Source: a virus
Length of the DNA stretch: 37,395 bases
IMG/VR virus record: IMGVR_UViG_3300037839_000669
Span: 1 to 37,395 of that record
Reading direction: 5' to 3' (one strand)
Part shown: positions 1 through 7,325 of the stretch, piece by piece
Numbering within the stretch: the stretch's first letter is position 1
How the letters are laid out: every line of letters begins with the position of its first letter
Notes under the pieces: generated by a model
What the model saw: the letters and a program-made list of their open reading frames with translations, nothing else
Told to the model about the DNA's origin: nothing
Database searches by the model: none
Translations under genes and position numbers: made by a program

Positions 1-249
1 ATAATAGAATGTAAAACCATAGATTTTATTCCAAACTTCGCTATTTGTTGTTAAAAGAAGATTACATTGAGAAGCATAAATCATTGCATCAACAAAGCAG
101 GAATTAGGAAGATTAGTTATATTGTTGTATTTTTTAAGTTCAAAACCAATTTTTAAACAAGAGACCCAAGATACGATTAATGCAACCCCAACAAGTAATG
201 TTTTTGTTTTCCAGGCCCAGAGTTTACTTATTTTTTTTGTAGTCTTCAA
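1..249 (-). CDS. Membrane-anchored protein, truncated by window edge
   Basis: An open frame runs from a TTG codon at 249 off the left end with no stop. The visible 83 residues are a basic N-terminus (MKTTKKISK), one hydrophobic segment (about residues 17-34, LLVGVALIVSWVSCL), then a soluble part containing NSCFVDAMIYASQCN. It overlaps the end of the upstream gene by 26 bases, which is the usual packing here. No ATG exists in this frame near the start, so the TTG is inferred. The cysteine after the membrane segment could be an active-site residue of a papain or transglutaminase-like fold, but too little is visible to say. No function assigned. Confidence 0.55.
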   Translation of the reverse strand, partial: MKTTKKISKLWAWKTKTLLVGVALIVSWVSCLKIGFELKKYNNITNLPNSCFVDAMIYASQCNLLLTTNSEVWNKIYGFTFYY

Positions 250-1384
250 GGCAAGATTTAAATTTAGATTTGTCATCACCTTTTTTTGTAGGAACACATT
301 TTTTTAAGAACTCATTAAATTTTTGAGCTTCAATGGTTGTCATTTTTTTGTATTCTTCGTCTGCTTCTATTTGATATTTATCAGAAGCTTTAACTAGTTG
401 AATTTCTGTTTTACCAAGCATATCCCCTTTTTTCCAAGTTGATCCATCGTTTGTGCATTCATACATTACTGCGTATCCCATATCTTCTGGTAAGTCGCGA
501 ATTTCTTTAACGATTCCTTCGCTACCATAATGCTTACATTCTGCATTTACATTTTTGACTTTATCACCAACTTTAAACATCATTGAAGCACTTGATTCTT
601 CATTTTCTTTATTAAACATCACATAATTATGGATAGTAATCATGTAGTCTTCTGCAAGAATTGCCATTTGTTGTAAGAATGGTTCTGTAAGATTTTCTTT
701 AACCATTGGATCATTTAATTTATTTAAAATGTTTTGAGCGTGGACTTGAATTGAAGTGATAGACCCAACTATCATGCCATAAAAATCTTCTTTGTAATCT
801 TGTAGTTCTTCTTCTGGAGATTCCATTTCTTCTACATTATGTAAGTCGGCTGTCATTAATTCATTCTGATCAAATTCTGTTTCGCCGTCCCACTCGTATT
901 GTTCGTTAGAGTAATCTTCTGCTTGAGCTTTTTTCAGTGCTTCTGGAGTTGGGCGATCTTTTGAACCAGGTTTTGCTGGTTTATAATTTTTGCCCATTCT
1001 TTTTTTCTTTTGCTGAATGTTGTACCAAAGACCTTTACTCTTAGCTTGAACGTCTATTTCAAAATTAACCTCTTCTTCACTTCCAGTAATTTTACTAACT
1101 GGTTTTGCACTCCACATTTTGCAACTCCAATAATTGGCTTTATATTTTGGACCAGGATTATCGCAACCATGTCTTGATCTATATGCTTTGCGTCTTTCTG
1201 GATTGTCTCTTTTAATAGACATATTTGGATCGCCGAAAGTAACTTTTACGATATTACCTTTATCATTCTTTACATAAACGCCAAATTTCTTTTTGCTTCC
1301 AGAAGGAAGTCTAAATGGTTTATTAAGTGGTGCTTTGCCTTTTTTAGCTAAACTAGAACTAAAATCAATTTCTACTTGTTTCAT
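224..1384 (-). CDS. Phage protein with RRKxYRxRHxCDNPGPK motif
   Basis: 386 residues, function not established. Residues about 30-95 carry a striking conserved block: a GVYVKN strand, FGDPNMSIKRDNPERR, then RHGCDNPGPKYKANYWSCKMW, with two cysteines and several aromatic residues. I recall this block from proteins of large aquatic phages, where its role is unclear to me. The middle is acidic (EEMESPEEELQDYKED). Residues about 268-335 look like a small beta barrel (FKVGDKVKN..GSEGIVKEIR) resembling a KOW/SH3-like module. The C-terminus is lysine-rich. It is the fourth of a co-directional run with two small paralogues upstream, whose promoter-like elements suggest virion-stage expression. A structural or scaffold role is inference only. 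Confidence 0.75.
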   Translation of the reverse strand: MKQVEIDFSSSLAKKGKAPLNKPFRLPSGSKKKFGVYVKNDKGNIVKVTFGDPNMSIKRDNPERRKAYRSRHGCDNPGPKYKANYWSCKMWSAKPVSKITGSEEEVNFEIDVQAKSKGLWYNIQQKKKRMGKNYKPAKPGSKDRPTPEALKKAQAEDYSNEQYEWDGETEFDQNELMTADLHNVEEMESPEEELQDYKEDFYGMIVGSITSIQVHAQNILNKLNDPMVKENLTEPFLQQMAILAEDYMITIHNYVMFNKENEESSASMMFKVGDKVKNVNAECKHYGSEGIVKEIRDLPEDMGYAVMYECTNDGSTWKKGDMLGKTEIQLVKASDKYQIEADEEYKKMTTIEAQKFNEFLKKCVPTKKGDDKSKFKSCLEDYKKNK

Positions 1385-2012: not shown

Positions 2013-2039
2013 AAAATTAATGCTGATAGGTTAAATACT

Positions 2040-2458
2040 TGGACCAGGGGGAAATCGAATCCCCGTCTTTTAAAAAGTCAAATTAAAATACTACAAGTTT
2101 ATCTTATTCCGTTATTTCGCTATAGTGTCGAATAAGCAATTGAGCTATAGCTATTTATTTAAAAATGAATATAACCTTAGCTATATCCACCCTGAATAAT
2201 ATCTTTAAAAATTAAATAAAAAGGATTTAAAGACATACATCTAAATACCCATTATCCTACTAGATGTGTCATAGGTAACAGGTCGCAGATTTTTAGGCTG
2301 CGATTAGGTGCTTCTTATTGTGAGAAACTCTCAATGAGAAACTACCTTTTAGCTTAGCTGTTTTGGCAGTTAAGTGTTTTTGAAGCTGTTTAAAGAGTCT
2401 ACTTCAACTCTACTTGCATTTCAATTCCATTTTTTAAAATCGAAACCAGATCTGGCCC
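2040..2458 (-). ncRNA. ssrA: tmRNA (transfer-messenger RNA)
   Basis: One-piece tmRNA of about 419 nt that rescues stalled ribosomes. The ends form a tRNA-like domain: 5' GGGCCAG pairs with 3' CTGGTCC (7 bp, one G-U). The T arm is GGGGA-TTCGATT-TCCCC. The 5' part reads GATCTGGTTTCGAT, like the usual GATTCTGGATTCGAC. An H-type pseudoknot follows: AGAGT/ACTCT with loop TGAAG pairing to downstream CTTCA. The reading frame starts at GCC (2367) and runs 24 codons, beginning AKTAKL and ending HLIAA, to TAA at 2295-2293. The stop sits in a CGCAG/CTGCG hairpin as expected for helix 5, and the two other frames are blocked by stops. CCA is not encoded. A canonical promoter lies just upstream, so it is an independent transcription unit. 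Confidence 0.95.
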
Positions 2459-2490: not shown

Positions 2491-2519
2491 ATTATACTTT
2501 ATCTATTAGTTTTTTGCAA
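2491..2519 (-). promoter_or_regulatory. sigma70-type promoter of the tmRNA
   Basis: Minus strand TTGCAA, 17-base spacer, perfect TATAAT. Predicted start near 2484, giving a leader of about 26 bases before the mature tmRNA 5' end at 2458, to be removed as in a tRNA precursor. Confidence 0.75.
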
Positions 2520-2707
2520 TCTTTTTTATAAGCGAAAACAAATTTTAATTTTAAACCATTAACATCTGAATTTATATATGATTGAACTAAACAAGGAAAC
2601 TCTTCAGGTTTGAAATTTTTATCAATATTATCCTCTGCTAGATTATAGCTTTTAGCTTTGCTTTTTGTGAATTTCATCCATGAGTTTTGATTTTTAATTA
2701 GTTCCAT
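2492..2707 (-). CDS. Small protein of unknown function
   Basis: 71 residues starting MELIKNQNSWMKFTKSKAK. The start at 2707 was chosen over in-frame upstream codons because a TATAAT ends exactly 7 bases before this ATG, matching other genes of the window that appear leaderless. The protein is lysine-rich with no membrane segment or recognised motif. It lies between the tmRNA and the divergent structured-RNA candidate. Its C-terminal codons overlap the tmRNA promoter, so it may be co-transcribed with, or simply precede, the tmRNA. No function can be assigned. Confidence 0.6.
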   Translation of the reverse strand: MELIKNQNSWMKFTKSKAKSYNLAEDNIDKNFKPEEFPCLVQSYINSDVNGLKLKFVFAYKKDCKKLIDKV

Positions 2708-2713
2708 GAAAAA

Positions 2714-2742
2714 ATTATATAAAAACATTTGACAAATTTCCA
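2714..2742 (-). promoter_or_regulatory. sigma70-type promoter, leaderless configuration
   Basis: TGGAAA, 17-base spacer, TATAAT on the minus strand. The -10 ends 7 bases before the ATG at 2707. It overlaps a plus-strand promoter (2729-2757), so the two face away from each other. Confidence 0.55.
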
Positions 2743-2757
2743 AGTTCTTTGTATCAT
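2729..2757 (+). promoter_or_regulatory. sigma70-type promoter of the structured RNA candidate
   Basis: TTGACA, 17-base spacer, TATCAT on the plus strand. Predicted start near 2764. No open frame of useful length follows on this strand, only the structured region, which argues for a non-coding transcript. Confidence 0.65.
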
Positions 2758-2763
2758 ACCAAT

Positions 2764-3075
2764 TGACATAGCCTTCTAATCATAGGCAATTTTGATAGTT
2801 TTATAGAAAATTATTTAGTATGTAGTCCGAGAGATAGCAACGCTGTGAAGACTTGCGACTATGAAAACTTCCCTTGTGCATAATATGGCTCGGGAATTAA
2901 TGTGTGGATGTATGGGACGGCAGCATGTACAGGAGTAAGCCACCTCGCTCCTATAAGTGCCGTAGTCTGTTTCCTCGAAAGAGGAAAATGGGAGTTAAAA
3001 GAAAAGTAGGGACTGCGTACTAGACACAACCTAAATATAATATATATGAGGGAAAGTCTTCTATGGGATATTAAA
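2764..3075 (+). ncRNA. Unidentified structured RNA candidate, about 300 nt
   Basis: A gene-free stretch behind a strong plus-strand promoter that folds well on paper. Pairings seen directly: GAAGACTT (2847-2854) with AAGTCTTC (3054-3061), 8 perfect pairs about 200 nt apart; AGTCC (2824-2828) with GGACT (3010-3014); AACTTCCC (2866-2873) with GGGAGTT (2990-2996, one bulge); ACGGCA (2917-2922) with TGCCGT (2958-2963); AGGAG (2931-2935) with CTCCT (2948-2952); and TTCCTC-GAAA-GAGGAA (2971-2986), a hairpin with a GNRA tetraloop. The GNRA loop exists only on the plus strand. The AGTCC/GGACT pairing crosses the long-range helix, so it is an alternative or a pseudoknot. It is not tmRNA or tRNA and I could not fit 6S, RNase P or a group I intron. 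Ends are approximate. Confidence 0.6.
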
Positions 3076-3096
3076 GAAAAGTTAATAAATACAAGA

Positions 3097-3618
3097 TTAG
3101 TACCAGATTTCAGTATTGATTGTTCTTAATACTTTAATCCAATTGTTAAGATGATAAGCTATCTTCTCTTTGTTTGAATTCTCGTATCCTTGTTTAGCTA
3201 TCATGTAGTAAGTCTTTTGATTAGGGTAACACCTTCTTGGTCTTTCCAACTTCTTATGAAAGAATCCTAAGAACACAGTAAAGTACTGAGCAGTATCTTC
3301 ATCTTTCTTTATATTAAAAATAAACTCATCTTCTAGCTTGTCTTTACTTATAACTGGATACTTTTTACTTATAGTATCACTTATGTATTCTTTTTCATTA
3401 AAATCATAATCTAAATCTTGGCTATATTTTAAAATAGATAGAACTGCAAAAAGCTTAAAACTGATACCAACTACCTCTTCACCATGCAAGTCTTGCGCTG
3501 ATGCTTTTGTTAGTATTGCTTCTATGGCTTCTGGGTCATTTATTAAACAGAAGGTCTTCTCTTCTGACAATTCTAGTTTTTTAGAAAGATATTCAATATC
3601 TTTATGAGTTACTATCAC
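3097..3618 (-). CDS. Hypothetical phage protein
   Basis: 173 residues from a GTG start (MIVTHKDIEYLSKKLELSEEK). Predicted mainly helical at the N-terminus, where residues about 5-60 resemble a small helical domain with an LSEEKTFCLI helix. The C-terminal part is basic (RPRRCYPNQKTYYMIAKQGYENS) and ends in tryptophan and tyrosine. No catalytic motif, signal peptide or membrane segment is visible. A CTGTAATAG element 14 bases upstream groups it with the putative late genes. It runs toward the structured RNA candidate, with the stop about 20 bases from that RNA's estimated end. Function unknown. Confidence 0.75.
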   Translation of the reverse strand: MIVTHKDIEYLSKKLELSEEKTFCLINDPEAIEAILTKASAQDLHGEEVVGISFKLFAVLSILKYSQDLDYDFNEKEYISDTISKKYPVISKDKLEDEFIFNIKKDEDTAQYFTVFLGFFHKKLERPRRCYPNQKTYYMIAKQGYENSNKEKIAYHLNNWIKVLRTINTEIWY

Positions 3619-3623
3619 TTAAT

Positions 3624-3632
3624 CTATTACAG
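3624..3632 (-). promoter_or_regulatory. GTGTAAT-type promoter element (CTGTAAT variant)
   Basis: CTGTAATAG on the minus strand, 14 bases from its first base to the GTG start at 3618. Confidence 0.45.
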
Positions 3633-3637
3633 CTAAA

Positions 3638-3970
3638 TTAGTTTTTATCGAAAAAATATTGTTGAATCAATTCAAAATTCCTATCAAGCTTATCTTCAAT
3701 CTTCTCCATAGCATTCTCTACAGTATCTTTTGTGGCATAAGTTGTGCTTACTTTTAAAGCTAGATCAGCAATATCTTGTTCGTTTTTTCTGCTCTCTGCT
3801 TCTAGCTCTTTTCTTAAAATTATAAAGTCGCTGAAAGTTTTATCATTCAAATCTTTCATTAGTTTTTCTTGCTTATCAAAAAGTGAAAACACTCTGGTAA
3901 ATAGCCATCCTCCTAGGAAAGATAATGCTCCTAAGACTAAATTAAATAATATGTTGATATCCAAATTCAC
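3638..3970 (-). CDS. Single-pass membrane protein with coiled coil
   Basis: 110 residues from a GTG start. One membrane segment near the N-terminus (about residues 6-30, ILFNLVLGALSFLGGWLFTRV) is followed by a long charged helix with heptad-like spacing (KQEKLMKDLNDK...ILRKELEAESRKNEQDIADLALKV...MEKIEDKLDRNFELIQQYF). Phages often carry such N-anchored coiled-coil proteins near tail or lysis genes, sometimes called holin- or spanin-like. Nothing here decides between these. A GTGTAATTAT element 14 bases upstream suggests late expression. No signal peptidase site is seen, so an N-in, C-out or C-in anchor are both possible. Confidence 0.75.
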   Translation of the reverse strand: MNLDINILFNLVLGALSFLGGWLFTRVFSLFDKQEKLMKDLNDKTFSDFIILRKELEAESRKNEQDIADLALKVSTTYATKDTVENAMEKIEDKLDRNFELIQQYFFDKN

Positions 3971-3974
3971 ATAT

Positions 3975-3984
3975 ATAATTACAC
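3975..3984 (-). promoter_or_regulatory. GTGTAAT-type promoter element
   Basis: GTGTAATTAT on the minus strand, 14 bases from its first G to the GTG start codon at 3970. Confidence 0.55.
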
Positions 3985-3997
3985 ATTATATATACTG

Positions 3998-5062
3998 TTA
4001 TAGTTTTAAATTAGAGAAATCCTCATCAGAAATATCTGTTTTTCTAGCTCCTATTTTATAGGATGAAATTTCTGTTTCTTGTGGTGCAACTTGCACTTTA
4101 CTACTGTCTAAATAGCTATCATGCCATCCAGCTATAGGGTTATCCTTTTGATTAAAGATCTTCTTATAGCCTAAGCTTCTTAATCTGCTATCACAAAGCC
4201 ACTTAGAGTAACCATCTAAAACCTCGGCATTTAATCCAAGTAAACTACCATTACTAAAGAGATATTGAGACCATTCACTTTCATTCTTTGCTGCTTGTTC
4301 ATAGAAAGCATAGATCTTGTCTTCATTTTTCTTTACAATAGATGTGAAGCCTTCTTCATCTTCATCACGAAGTATCTTTAACAGATTTTGAGAAGTAGCA
4401 AAATGCAAAGCTTCGTCTCTTTGAATGAATTTTATAATTTTAGAATTACCTTCCATCTTGCCACGATATCCAAAATAAAAGGAACAAGCAAAAGAAACAT
4501 AAAACACAAGCCCTTCCATTACATTAATAGAAAGAATAGCATCAAAAATCTTTTGTTTAGGATCTTTCTTTTCATCATCACCAAGAATTTTATCAAAGTT
4601 ATTTCTAATAAGTTCAGCGCGACTGGTAATTTCTTTGTCTTCCATTATGCTATCAAAGAATTTAGTTGGATCTGGGTAGACATTATTAAGAAGATAAGAA
4701 TAGCTATAACTATGAATGCCTTCAAATTGAGCCCAAGTATTCATGCAAATTTCAAGTTCTGGATTGCTTACATAATCTTTAAGAGAATGAATGCTACGAG
4801 AAAGCATGCTATCACCAAGAGTTTGAAATCTTAAATTACTATCAAATACAAATCTTTCAGTATCAGTTAAATTTTGATAATCACTTCTGTCTTTACCAAG
4901 AGCAATTTCATGAGGCCACCAAAAGTTTTCATTTTGCTTCTTAAACAATTCAAAAAATATTGGATATTTAAAACGATCATATCTTTGAAGATTAAGATCT
5001 TCTCCAAGAAACAAAGGTTGTTTAGTATAGTCTACGTTTTTTAAATTTAAAACTGTTTTCAT
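3998..5062 (-). CDS. nrdB: Ribonucleoside-diphosphate reductase, beta subunit (class Ia)
   Basis: 354 residues from the ATG at 5062 (MKTVLNLKNVDYTK); a further 12 codons upstream are open but would overlap nrdA. It supplies the di-iron tyrosyl radical for NrdA, which makes deoxyribonucleotides. Ligands are visible: an Asp in the TLGDSM region, EGIH in the second ligand helix, and the E of VMEG plus RDEALH for the second half. In HSYSYSY the last tyrosine falls at the place of the E. coli radical Tyr122. The C-terminal tail (DISDEDFSNLKL) should dock on NrdA. A GTGTAAATTA element sits inside the last codons of nrdA, 17 bases before this start, so nrdB may have its own promoter as well as reading through from nrdA. 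Confidence 0.93.
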   Translation of the reverse strand: MKTVLNLKNVDYTKQPLFLGEDLNLQRYDRFKYPIFFELFKKQNENFWWPHEIALGKDRSDYQNLTDTERFVFDSNLRFQTLGDSMLSRSIHSLKDYVSNPELEICMNTWAQFEGIHSYSYSYLLNNVYPDPTKFFDSIMEDKEITSRAELIRNNFDKILGDDEKKDPKQKIFDAILSINVMEGLVFYVSFACSFYFGYRGKMEGNSKIIKFIQRDEALHFATSQNLLKILRDEDEEGFTSIVKKNEDKIYAFYEQAAKNESEWSQYLFSNGSLLGLNAEVLDGYSKWLCDSRLRSLGYKKIFNQKDNPIAGWHDSYLDSSKVQVAPQETEISSYKIGARKTDISDEDFSNLKL

Positions 5063-5066
5063 AGGA

Positions 5067-7325
5067 CTATAATTTACACGCTCCGCTAGCACAATCATCT
5101 TCTTTTTGAGTCATAGATTGTTCTTTGTCACCATCATCTGTATTATTATAATATAAGCTTATTAAGCCAAGGCTATATGCATACATTATTTCTTTCATGA
5201 CTTTAGAATCTGGCAATATGTTATTCTCATAATGACTATAATTGTAGTATACATTAGTTGATATGGCCATGTCAATATACTTTTGAATAACAGCATTAAT
5301 TTTCAATAGCCCAATATTATCTTTGAGATCATAAGCTAGTTCGTAGTTCTCTTCATATTTTCCGATTCCTGGAACCATAACTGGAAGTTTGCCCATTTTA
5401 CTAGTCTTGTAAGTCATAAGACTACGAATTGGTTCAACACCATTTGTAGAGCATTGGATGACTGAACTACTTTCGCAAGGCATACAAGACGAAAGTGTAG
5501 AATGTCTTAGTCCAAACTCTTTTATATCTTTTCTTAATTGTTCCCAATCTAAAGATAATTTTCTTTTAACAATTTCATCTAATTTATCTTTGTATGTATC
5601 TATAGGTAATAGTCCTTGAGAATACTTTGTTCTATTAAATTTTTCACACTTGCCTTTTTCTTTAGCTATTTCAAGGCTAGACTTAAGAAGATAGTATTGG
5701 AAATGTTCCATCCATTCATCGAGGACTGTTAAAGCTTTATCAGAGCTATATTTTAATTCATTTTTAGCTAGATAAGCTGCAAGGTTTGTAATTCCAACTC
5801 CTAAACTTCTACGTTTCTTAGCAAAATTTTCAGCAGCAATATTAAAGTACTCTTGAATATCTATGATTTCATCAAGAAATCTCACGATTAGATCGCAGGT
5901 CTTTTCAAGATCTTGCCAATTTTTTATCTCTAGCATATTGACTGCTGAAAGGATACACATTCCAATTTCCCCGTTTTTATCATTATAATCATTTAAAGGA
6001 ATAGTAGGATGAATAACTTCTGTGCATAGATTACTCATTGTTACTTTATCAAGCCAAGCACCATGATCATTAGCATGATCAATATTAAGAATATAAATAC
6101 GGCCAGTCTCTACTCTTTCTTTAACTATAAGAGAAAACAATTTTCTAGCAGAAACTTTCTTTTTTATCTTTAATCTTTTAGATTCGCACTCTTTGTAAAC
6201 TTTATCAAAGTCTTTTGTTCCCCAAGCTTCATAAAGTTCTGGAACTTCAGCATTATTGAATAAGGTAATATCTTCATCTTTAAGAACTCTATCATAGAAT
6301 AGTTTACTCATACCAATTGTATAATCGAGCTTTCTGACTCTATTATCATCTGTACCAGCATTATTTTTTAATACTACCACATCTTCAATTTCATAATGCC
6401 ACCATTGAATATTGCAAGTTGCACTACCACCTCTTAATCCATTTTGTTGCCAAGCTTTTACGCTACTTTCATAAATTTTTAAGAATGGAATTAATCCAGT
6501 ATGAACTACTTCTCCATTTTTGATCGGAGATCCAATAGCTCTAATTTTTGAAACATCAATACCAATTCCACATCTATTTGCTGTGGCCATACTAACTGCT
6601 GTAGCACTAGCAGTAATACTTTCTCTTGTATCGTCCACACCAATAAGACAACAGCTTGCATAATTTTTACTAGAAGTTCTGACTCCTGCCATAATTGGCG
6701 TTGGAAGATTAATTTTGTGCTTGCTAATAGCATCATAGAATTTTCTTACATAATTGAGTCTTGTTTCAATTGGATAGTTAATAAAACTATAAGCTGCTAT
6801 TAATAGGTAAGCAAATTGAGGAGTCTCATAGATGACTCCATTAGTTCTATTTTTAATTAAATATTTATCGCAAAGTTGCTTTATACCAGCATAGGTGAAT
6901 ATAAAATCTCTGTCGTGGTCTATAAATTCGCCAATCTTATTAATTTCATCTGATGTATATTTCTCTAATACAATAGGATCATAAATTTTATTTTTTACAT
7001 TGTTTTGTATAAATTCTATTAATCTTGGAGCGTGTTTGCCATTCCAAACTTCTTTTCTTAGTTGATAATTAAGAAGCCTACTTGCTACATATTGGTAATT
7101 AGGACTAGATATAGATATAAGGTTAGCGGCACTTTCTATTAGTAGAGAATGAATTTCCTTTGATGAGATTCCATCTTTCATGCTAATTTTAGCATTGATC
7201 TCAATATCGGTTAAGCTAACATTTGAATAGCCATCGATTGCCCATTTGATGACTTTATTTATTTTTTCTATATCGAATTTCTCTAAAGTCTCATTTCTTT
7301 TTTTGATTAAAATTTGTTTACTCAT
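5067..7325 (-). CDS. nrdA: Ribonucleoside-diphosphate reductase, alpha subunit (class Ia)
   Basis: 752 residues, close to the 761 of E. coli NrdA. It reduces NDPs to dNDPs. The N-terminal ATP-cone is intact (about residues 1-95, ILIKKRNETLEKFDIEKINK), so dATP feedback control may be kept. Catalytic parts are visible: CCLIGVDD (first redox cysteine), NLCTEVIHP (radical cysteine and glutamate), VYYNYSHY near the C-terminus and the swinging CASGAC pair in the last ten residues. nrdB follows with a 4-base gap. The next gene on the other side is the divergent tail fibre. There is no intron or split, unlike several phage nrdA genes. Confidence 0.95.
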   Translation of the reverse strand: MSKQILIKKRNETLEKFDIEKINKVIKWAIDGYSNVSLTDIEINAKISMKDGISSKEIHSLLIESAANLISISSPNYQYVASRLLNYQLRKEVWNGKHAPRLIEFIQNNVKNKIYDPIVLEKYTSDEINKIGEFIDHDRDFIFTYAGIKQLCDKYLIKNRTNGVIYETPQFAYLLIAAYSFINYPIETRLNYVRKFYDAISKHKINLPTPIMAGVRTSSKNYASCCLIGVDDTRESITASATAVSMATANRCGIGIDVSKIRAIGSPIKNGEVVHTGLIPFLKIYESSVKAWQQNGLRGGSATCNIQWWHYEIEDVVVLKNNAGTDDNRVRKLDYTIGMSKLFYDRVLKDEDITLFNNAEVPELYEAWGTKDFDKVYKECESKRLKIKKKVSARKLFSLIVKERVETGRIYILNIDHANDHGAWLDKVTMSNLCTEVIHPTIPLNDYNDKNGEIGMCILSAVNMLEIKNWQDLEKTCDLIVRFLDEIIDIQEYFNIAAENFAKKRRSLGVGITNLAAYLAKNELKYSSDKALTVLDEWMEHFQYYLLKSSLEIAKEKGKCEKFNRTKYSQGLLPIDTYKDKLDEIVKRKLSLDWEQLRKDIKEFGLRHSTLSSCMPCESSSVIQCSTNGVEPIRSLMTYKTSKMGKLPVMVPGIGKYEENYELAYDLKDNIGLLKINAVIQKYIDMAISTNVYYNYSHYENNILPDSKVMKEIMYAYSLGLISLYYNNTDDGDKEQSMTQKEDDCASGACKL
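5070..5079 (-). promoter_or_regulatory. GTGTAAA-type promoter element inside the nrdA 3' end
   Basis: GTGTAAATTA on the minus strand overlaps the codons for Cys-Lys-Leu at the nrdA C-terminus and lies 17 bases before nrdB. The overlap with conserved codons means chance is possible. Confidence 0.4.

Follow-up and report, generated by a model that had tools for sequence, protein, structure and literature searches.

The stretch of DNA analysed here, referred to as the window (G000), is a virus record fragment of 37,395 bases. Its gene content is T4-like and includes nrdA, nrdB and tail fibre genes, together with a tmRNA gene at 2039-2458 (-). Compared with catalogued phages, the best identity is about 52% for NrdA and about 43% for NrdB, and the closest catalogued relatives of both proteins belong to Pelagibacter myophages and cyanophages. 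Around 80 contigs of the uncultured clade to which the window belongs were fetched for comparison. These are inferred to be uncultured freshwater T4-like phages, the freshwater habitat being read from sample identifiers and not from any tool result. The tmRNA is of the one-piece type, with a predicted tag that is unusually long (24 residues, AKTAKLKGSFSLRVSHNKKHLIAA), and blastn of this gene against 50,697 phages returned no match. The product of orf224 (window 224-1384 (-), 386 aa) matches phrog_7595 over its N-terminal 90 residues. On the plus strand of the window lies a structured non-coding RNA with its own promoter, the features of which are the following (window coordinates).

2729..2757 (+), sigma-70-type promoter, TTGACA-17-TATCAT; supported by its site score and a spaced -10 in 59/61 homologues
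2766..3084 (+), structured non-coding RNA, entire element; ends inferred from conservation and distance to the -10
2771..2787 (+), P1 hairpin (2771-2774/2784-2787); 100% paired in 30 sequences, equalled by 0/300 null sets
2795..2814 (+), P2 hairpin (2795-2802/2807-2814); by inspection only, unscored, alignment ambiguous; not established
2816..2828 (+), P3 long-range helix, 5' strand; phylogeny-aware null test
2834..2862 (+), P4 hairpin with invariant GCAA (2834-2837/2859-2862; 2841-2843/2855-2857); covariation tests
2847..2854 (+), pseudoknot PK1, 5' strand, in the P4 loop; complementary in 61/61 testable homologues
2869..2896 (+), P5 hairpin (2869-2873/2892-2896); covariation tests
2904..2907 (+), pseudoknot PK2, 5' strand, GUGG; covariation tests
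2917..2963 (+), P6 hairpin (2917-2922/2958-2963; 2932-2936/2947-2951); 58 compensatory cells vs 6.7 in the null
2940..2943 (+), pseudoknot PK2, 3' strand, CCAC, in the P6 loop; covariation tests
2970..2987 (+), P7 hairpin, GAAA loop; 38 compensatory cells vs 4.4 in the null
2991..3010 (+), direct repeat 1, core AAGAAAAG at 2999-3006; repeat comparison among homologues
3010..3022 (+), P3 long-range helix, 3' strand; phylogeny-aware null test
3030..3051 (+), P8 hairpin (3030-3032/3049-3051); weak support, 71% paired; not established
3054..3061 (+), pseudoknot PK1, 3' strand; complementary in 61/61 testable homologues
3066..3084 (+), direct repeat 2, at the 3' end, core AAGAAAAG at 3074-3081; repeat comparison among homologues

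The first-pass annotation of this locus had proposed the TTGACA-17-TATCAT promoter, the absence of a coding frame and the location of the neighbouring genes on the other strand, and all three claims held. The promoter, which scores 11/12, is the top plus-strand site within 2500-3700, and all but two of the 61 homologues have TTGACA and a spaced -10 placed suitably ahead of the conserved start, the background being 0.13 sites per kb per strand. Plus-strand ORFs do not exceed 39 aa and indels between homologues are not multiples of three; short ORFs and frame-breaking indels thus rule out a protein-coding reading. The extent of the RNA, previously given as 2764-3075, had to be corrected to one running most likely from 2766 to about 3084 (+), since conservation begins at ACAUAG and stops at AAAGAAAAGUUA. 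Both ends are inferred, the 5' end from a near-invariant ACAUA(G) start located 8 nt past the -10 and the 3' end from the stop of conservation, and an end at 3075 truncates copy 2 of a direct repeat that had been missed. The perfect 8-bp helix 2847-2854/3054-3061 was confirmed and is now recognized as pseudoknot PK1, while the reported 6-bp GNRA hairpin is real but comprises 7 bp (2970-2976/2981-2987, GAAA loop). The folding energy of the plus strand has a z of -3.1 to -3.3, with 0 shuffles as good, and folding of the opposite strand is weaker (z -1.7).

The homologue search, covariation test and Rfam comparison suggested in that annotation were all carried out, and each outcome favoured its interpretation. 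Homologues were found in related phages: blastn and iterated nhmmer gave 102 matches (E 2e-21 to 5e-89), with 61 distinct near-full-length RNAs, 280-320 nt in length across the family, plus one remote member (L204). Four subfamilies are distinguished. Subfamily A comprises the window type and the L043 type and usually adjoins the tmRNA; subfamily B comprises L029, L060 and L095; subfamily C contains L067, L078 and others; and subfamily D is L204. The P8 hairpin is short in the window RNA and long in subfamily B. Every matching record holds a single copy of the RNA. A covariance model built from A and B only recovers the left-out subfamily C (E 4e-6 to 1.5e-9), and one built from A, B and C recovers subfamily D (E 7.8e-6). 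The family can be taken as real with near certainty.

Strong covariation persists against all three kinds of control (shuffled, slid and phylogeny-aware). In alignment A3 (30 pairs), 93.4% of cells are paired, compared with 27-45% when partners are slid, and 194 cells are compensatory, compared with 63±6 after shuffling. Because the clades are deep, a tree-based simulation was added as a phylogeny-aware null, in which substitutions were simulated along the tree (n=300) over the eight helices P1, P3-P7, PK1 and PK2. Against this null the eight helices show 93.8% pairing vs 64.5±3.2 and 213 compensatory cells vs 39±12, values that 0/300 simulations reach, and each helix alone exceeds at least 296 of the 300 simulations on pairing. 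The significance of single pairs is limited (3/61 pairs in a two-set test vs 13/53,956 elsewhere), and an all-against-all covariation analysis, which has little power and is weak because deep clades dominate, gave 2 pairs at E up to 0.05. In PK1, the P4 loop is complementary to the segment preceding the 3' repeat in every testable homologue through 12 different solutions (e.g., GAAGACUU/AAGUCUUC, AAGGGCU/AGCCCUU, AUAGGCU/AGCCUAU, CAAAGCUU/AAGCUUUG and GCAAGCUU/AAGCUUGC), and exchanging the partners between unlike sequences shortens the duplex from a mean of 7.5 bp to one of 4.8 bp. What the covariation shows is a fold whose helices are held together by two pseudoknots. The invariant residues, several of them unpaired, are GCAA, UGUAG, UGnAAGG and AUAAGUG.

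No known family accounts for this RNA, in agreement with the first-pass annotation. A cmscan of the window and eight loci against Rfam 15 (4,227 models) gave no match for this RNA at the gathering score, and a cmscan relaxed to E 10 (window and one member each of L043-type A, C and D) gave chance-level matches at most; identity with a known RNA family is ruled out by both searches. The misfit to RNase P RNA, 6S RNA and group I introns that had been reported also held: these share with the new RNA the size class and a long-range helix crossing another, but differ in helix order and give no covariance model match even at E 10. The tmRNA (RF00023) is likewise rich in pseudoknots and is the adjacent gene in the lineage of the window, but it is a separate gene without sequence or structure match to the new RNA. 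More similar in kind are ROOL and GOLLD, which are also phage-encoded, stand-alone, pseudoknotted orphan RNAs, often near other RNA genes. Nevertheless, they measure about 600-850 nt and have other folds, whereas the new RNA measures 280-320 nt, has no Rfam match, carries a concertedly evolving direct repeat and adjoins the tmRNA in the lineage of the window. Membership of ROOL or GOLLD would require a covariance model match and 600+ nt, and the new RNA shows neither in a search of all Rfam models.

Searches outside the clade were negative within their scope. Using the window, the L043 type and subfamily C as queries, blastn found no homologue in 50,697 catalogued phages, and the pattern GGAGTYAAAAGAAAAGTDRG matched 15 contigs among 84,980 bacterial and archaeal genomes, none of them homologous. 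An R2 search of 200 genomes of one bacterial phylum plus six others found nothing, which is weak evidence in the absence of a positive control, and R2 gave no match in the full records of pelagiphages HTVC008M and Mosig and phage C48C1. No description of the RNA was found in the open-access literature, most subscription papers being outside coverage. The RNA class is judged to be new, 'orphan phage ncRNA' (ROOL, GOLLD; PMC12286853) being already known as a general bin.

The genomic context of the RNA differs between subfamilies. In B, C and D it is usually followed, at a distance of about 100-145 nt, by nrdA in the same orientation. In subfamily A, the cassette nrdA-nrdB-orf3638-orf3097 is inverted relative to the RNA, which is convergent with the nrdB-end/3' end. 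Other neighbours surround the RNA in L091, L134, L110 and L075. Together with the conserved promoter, these changed contexts uphold the earlier reading of an independent unit. As the RNA and the inverted nrd cassette run towards each other, leader function is excluded for the window and a function in trans follows. Riboswitch candidates associated with RNR, the nrdJ motif among them (Rfam), likewise adjoin ribonucleotide reductase genes; compared with these, the new RNA lacks an Rfam match, has its own promoter and is not an nrdA leader in the window. The existence, the structure and the stand-alone nature of a non-coding RNA of about 320 nt belonging to a new family are shown.

Further observations concern the neighbourhood. 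The cassette is inverted as a block between subfamilies (window 3097-7325 vs L029, L060 and L067), and the RNA and orf224 hold their mutual orientation despite this inversion; orf224 lies next to the RNA on its upstream side and is divergent from it in B and in several members of C, and it is also close by in A. In L060, L095, L067 and L074, a conserved A/T-rich element with TTTTTCTTTTTT and the -10-like CTGTAACAT precedes nrdA. This element, seen between the RNA and nrdA in B and C, could represent a separate nrdA promoter, with which it is consistent, and possibly one of the phage middle type.

The RNA also carries a direct repeat of about 20 nt, one copy of which is internal, after P7, and the other at the 3' end, about 75 nt apart. 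Both copies follow the motif GGAnnUCA(A)-core-U, copy 1 always having one extra A (UCAA-core vs UCA-core), and their flanks differ in every subfamily. Within every testable RNA the two copies share one 8-nt core, which differs between RNAs: AAGAAAAG in subfamilies A and B, UUGGGAAG in subfamily C, CUGGGAAG in L041, UUGGGAAA in L028 and L004, and GGGAAAAAG in subfamily D. Concerted changes have occurred at least six times between RNAs. Examples are U>C in both copies in L041 and G>A in both copies in L028 and L004 (whose repeats were judged identical by eye). In the scripted comparison, two rows scored as different and one artefact row reflect mis-picking, the script having taken a downstream AAGAAAAG or overlooked repeat 1. 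Directly past the core, U>A is found in both copies of L074, and the pyrimidine two bases before the shared A is U in both or C in both in two A lineages. In L028 and L004 (about 3602-3640), AAGAAAAG is also present just downstream of repeat 2, although their core is UUGGGAAA. The repeats are predicted to be more unpaired on average than the remaining RNA (0.73 and 0.69 vs 0.43), but for repeat 2 of two subfamily C members the prediction gives no particular openness (0.35-0.44). Pairing of the repeats with P1 inside the RNA was ruled out by the absence of covariation.

Given that the repeats change in concert, either both copies answer to one partner or conversion keeps them alike. Conversion is disfavoured because of the constant one-base difference and the differing flanks, and a nucleic-acid partner is favoured over a conserved protein because the core is rewritten fast. 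The complements of the core are CUUUUCUU for A and B, CUUCCCAA for C and CUUUUUCCC for D. Duplex scans of five large contigs for a conserved complement of the repeats gave only self matches and unshared sites, and exact-complement scans of six large contigs and the window gave only self matches and sites unshared between close relatives. Since these scans revealed no conserved complement in the large contigs or the window, the partner, which has not been identified, probably belongs to the host. The two repeats, predicted to be open on average, might offer the accessible sequence complementary to a host sRNA that a sponge would need. The only hint of a partner from Rfam is that at L043:11155-11178 (+) the antisense of repeat 2, in its A and B form, resembles the seed of the sRNA RybB (CUUUUCUUUGAU, 12 nt) with an E of 8.5, which is chance level, though of note for a sponge model.

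A two-bait decoy mechanism is proposed as the best explanation of these features. In this model, the RNA, which acts in trans and, as its contexts show, is not the leader of any fixed gene, would be transcribed from its own host-type promoter, its folded body being a scaffold that presents two identical, mostly single-stranded repeats to one partner. The partner would not be encoded in the phage contigs examined; the simplest candidate is an mRNA or small RNA of the host, which base pairing would titrate, and a sequence-specific RNA-binding protein is the alternative. In the infected cell, the RNA would then serve as a decoy, a sponge or an anti-sRNA. This function is inferred, with neither an identified partner nor transcript data, and the mechanism as a whole falls slightly short of being the probable one. 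There is a precedent for a bait-like phage RNA in AgvB, which imitates the mRNA targeted by the host sRNA GcvB (PMC4104026). The proposed likeness, namely titration of a host RNA by a phage RNA that imitates its target, is one of analogy in manner of working and not of ancestry: RNAs of the AgvB type are unusually short prophage sRNAs, whereas the new RNA is large, has two pseudoknots and comes from T4-like phages. The less open second repeat of subfamily C may count against a decoy, and repeat identity could also arise by gene conversion. With regard to the first-pass suggestion of a new class of regulatory or catalytic RNA, the new class is supported, a trans-acting bait or decoy is leaned to, and nothing argues for catalysis.

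Among the rival explanations, the one that survives best, and remains possible, is that the RNA serves as a scaffold, either structural or bound by protein (an RNP or an assembly of RNA alone, comparable to ROOL and GOLLD). The two repeats might then be bound by a protein of the phage or the host, or mediate RNA-RNA assembly, instead of being base-pairing baits for a host RNA. Two pseudoknots and many invariant residues, which imply a rigid tertiary fold, speak for this reading, and it is favoured by the fact that assembling orphan phage RNAs are known (PMC12286853). Against it, a protein site is normally conserved, yet the core changes wholly between subfamilies and always in both copies; in addition, ROOL is roughly twice as long as this RNA, and Rfam reveals no similarity between them. 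A ribozyme or a remnant of one (e.g., permuted or trans-acting intron-like), with the repeats as cleavage or splice sites, is unlikely. The double-pseudoknot architecture, the conserved loops and the duplicate sites in single-stranded positions would suit it, but Rfam searches revealed no similarity to any catalytic family, the helix order misfits group I introns and RNase P, the repeat cores vary freely, unlike active-site residues, and a cut at the internal repeat would part the strands of P3 and PK1. Similarly doubtful is the view that the concerted repeats are functionless and held alike by gene conversion or slippage, the RNA acting otherwise, e.g., through its loops. The repeats are indeed short, direct and only about 75 nt apart, and no partner was found, but wholesale conversion would erase the constant one-nucleotide difference and the distinct flanks. 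Finally, the view that the RNA acts in cis on the ribonucleotide reductase operon, as its leader or riboswitch, for which the position upstream of nrdA in B, C and D would argue, is very unlikely, as a leader should keep a fixed position upstream of nrdAB but orientation and distance vary between subfamilies, the RNA is convergent with the cassette in the window's own subfamily, the A/T-rich element with CTGTAACAT intervenes in B and C, and contexts differ in L091, L134, L110 and L075.

It is uncommon for a new structured RNA class to show this degree of covariation, and T4-like phages have so far contributed few such classes. To return to the decoy, a bolder version of this reading, which is no more than a possibility, is that of a double-pseudoknot modular decoy with two swappable and always identical recognition elements, re-targeted in each lineage to a host regulatory RNA. 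Twin repeats that are identical within an RNA yet rewritten between phages lead to a testable prediction about the partner, and the homologue set and alignments allow an immediate search in metatranscriptomes. If the decoy reading is true, T4-like phages of lake bacteria would reprogram their hosts with a re-targetable RNA.
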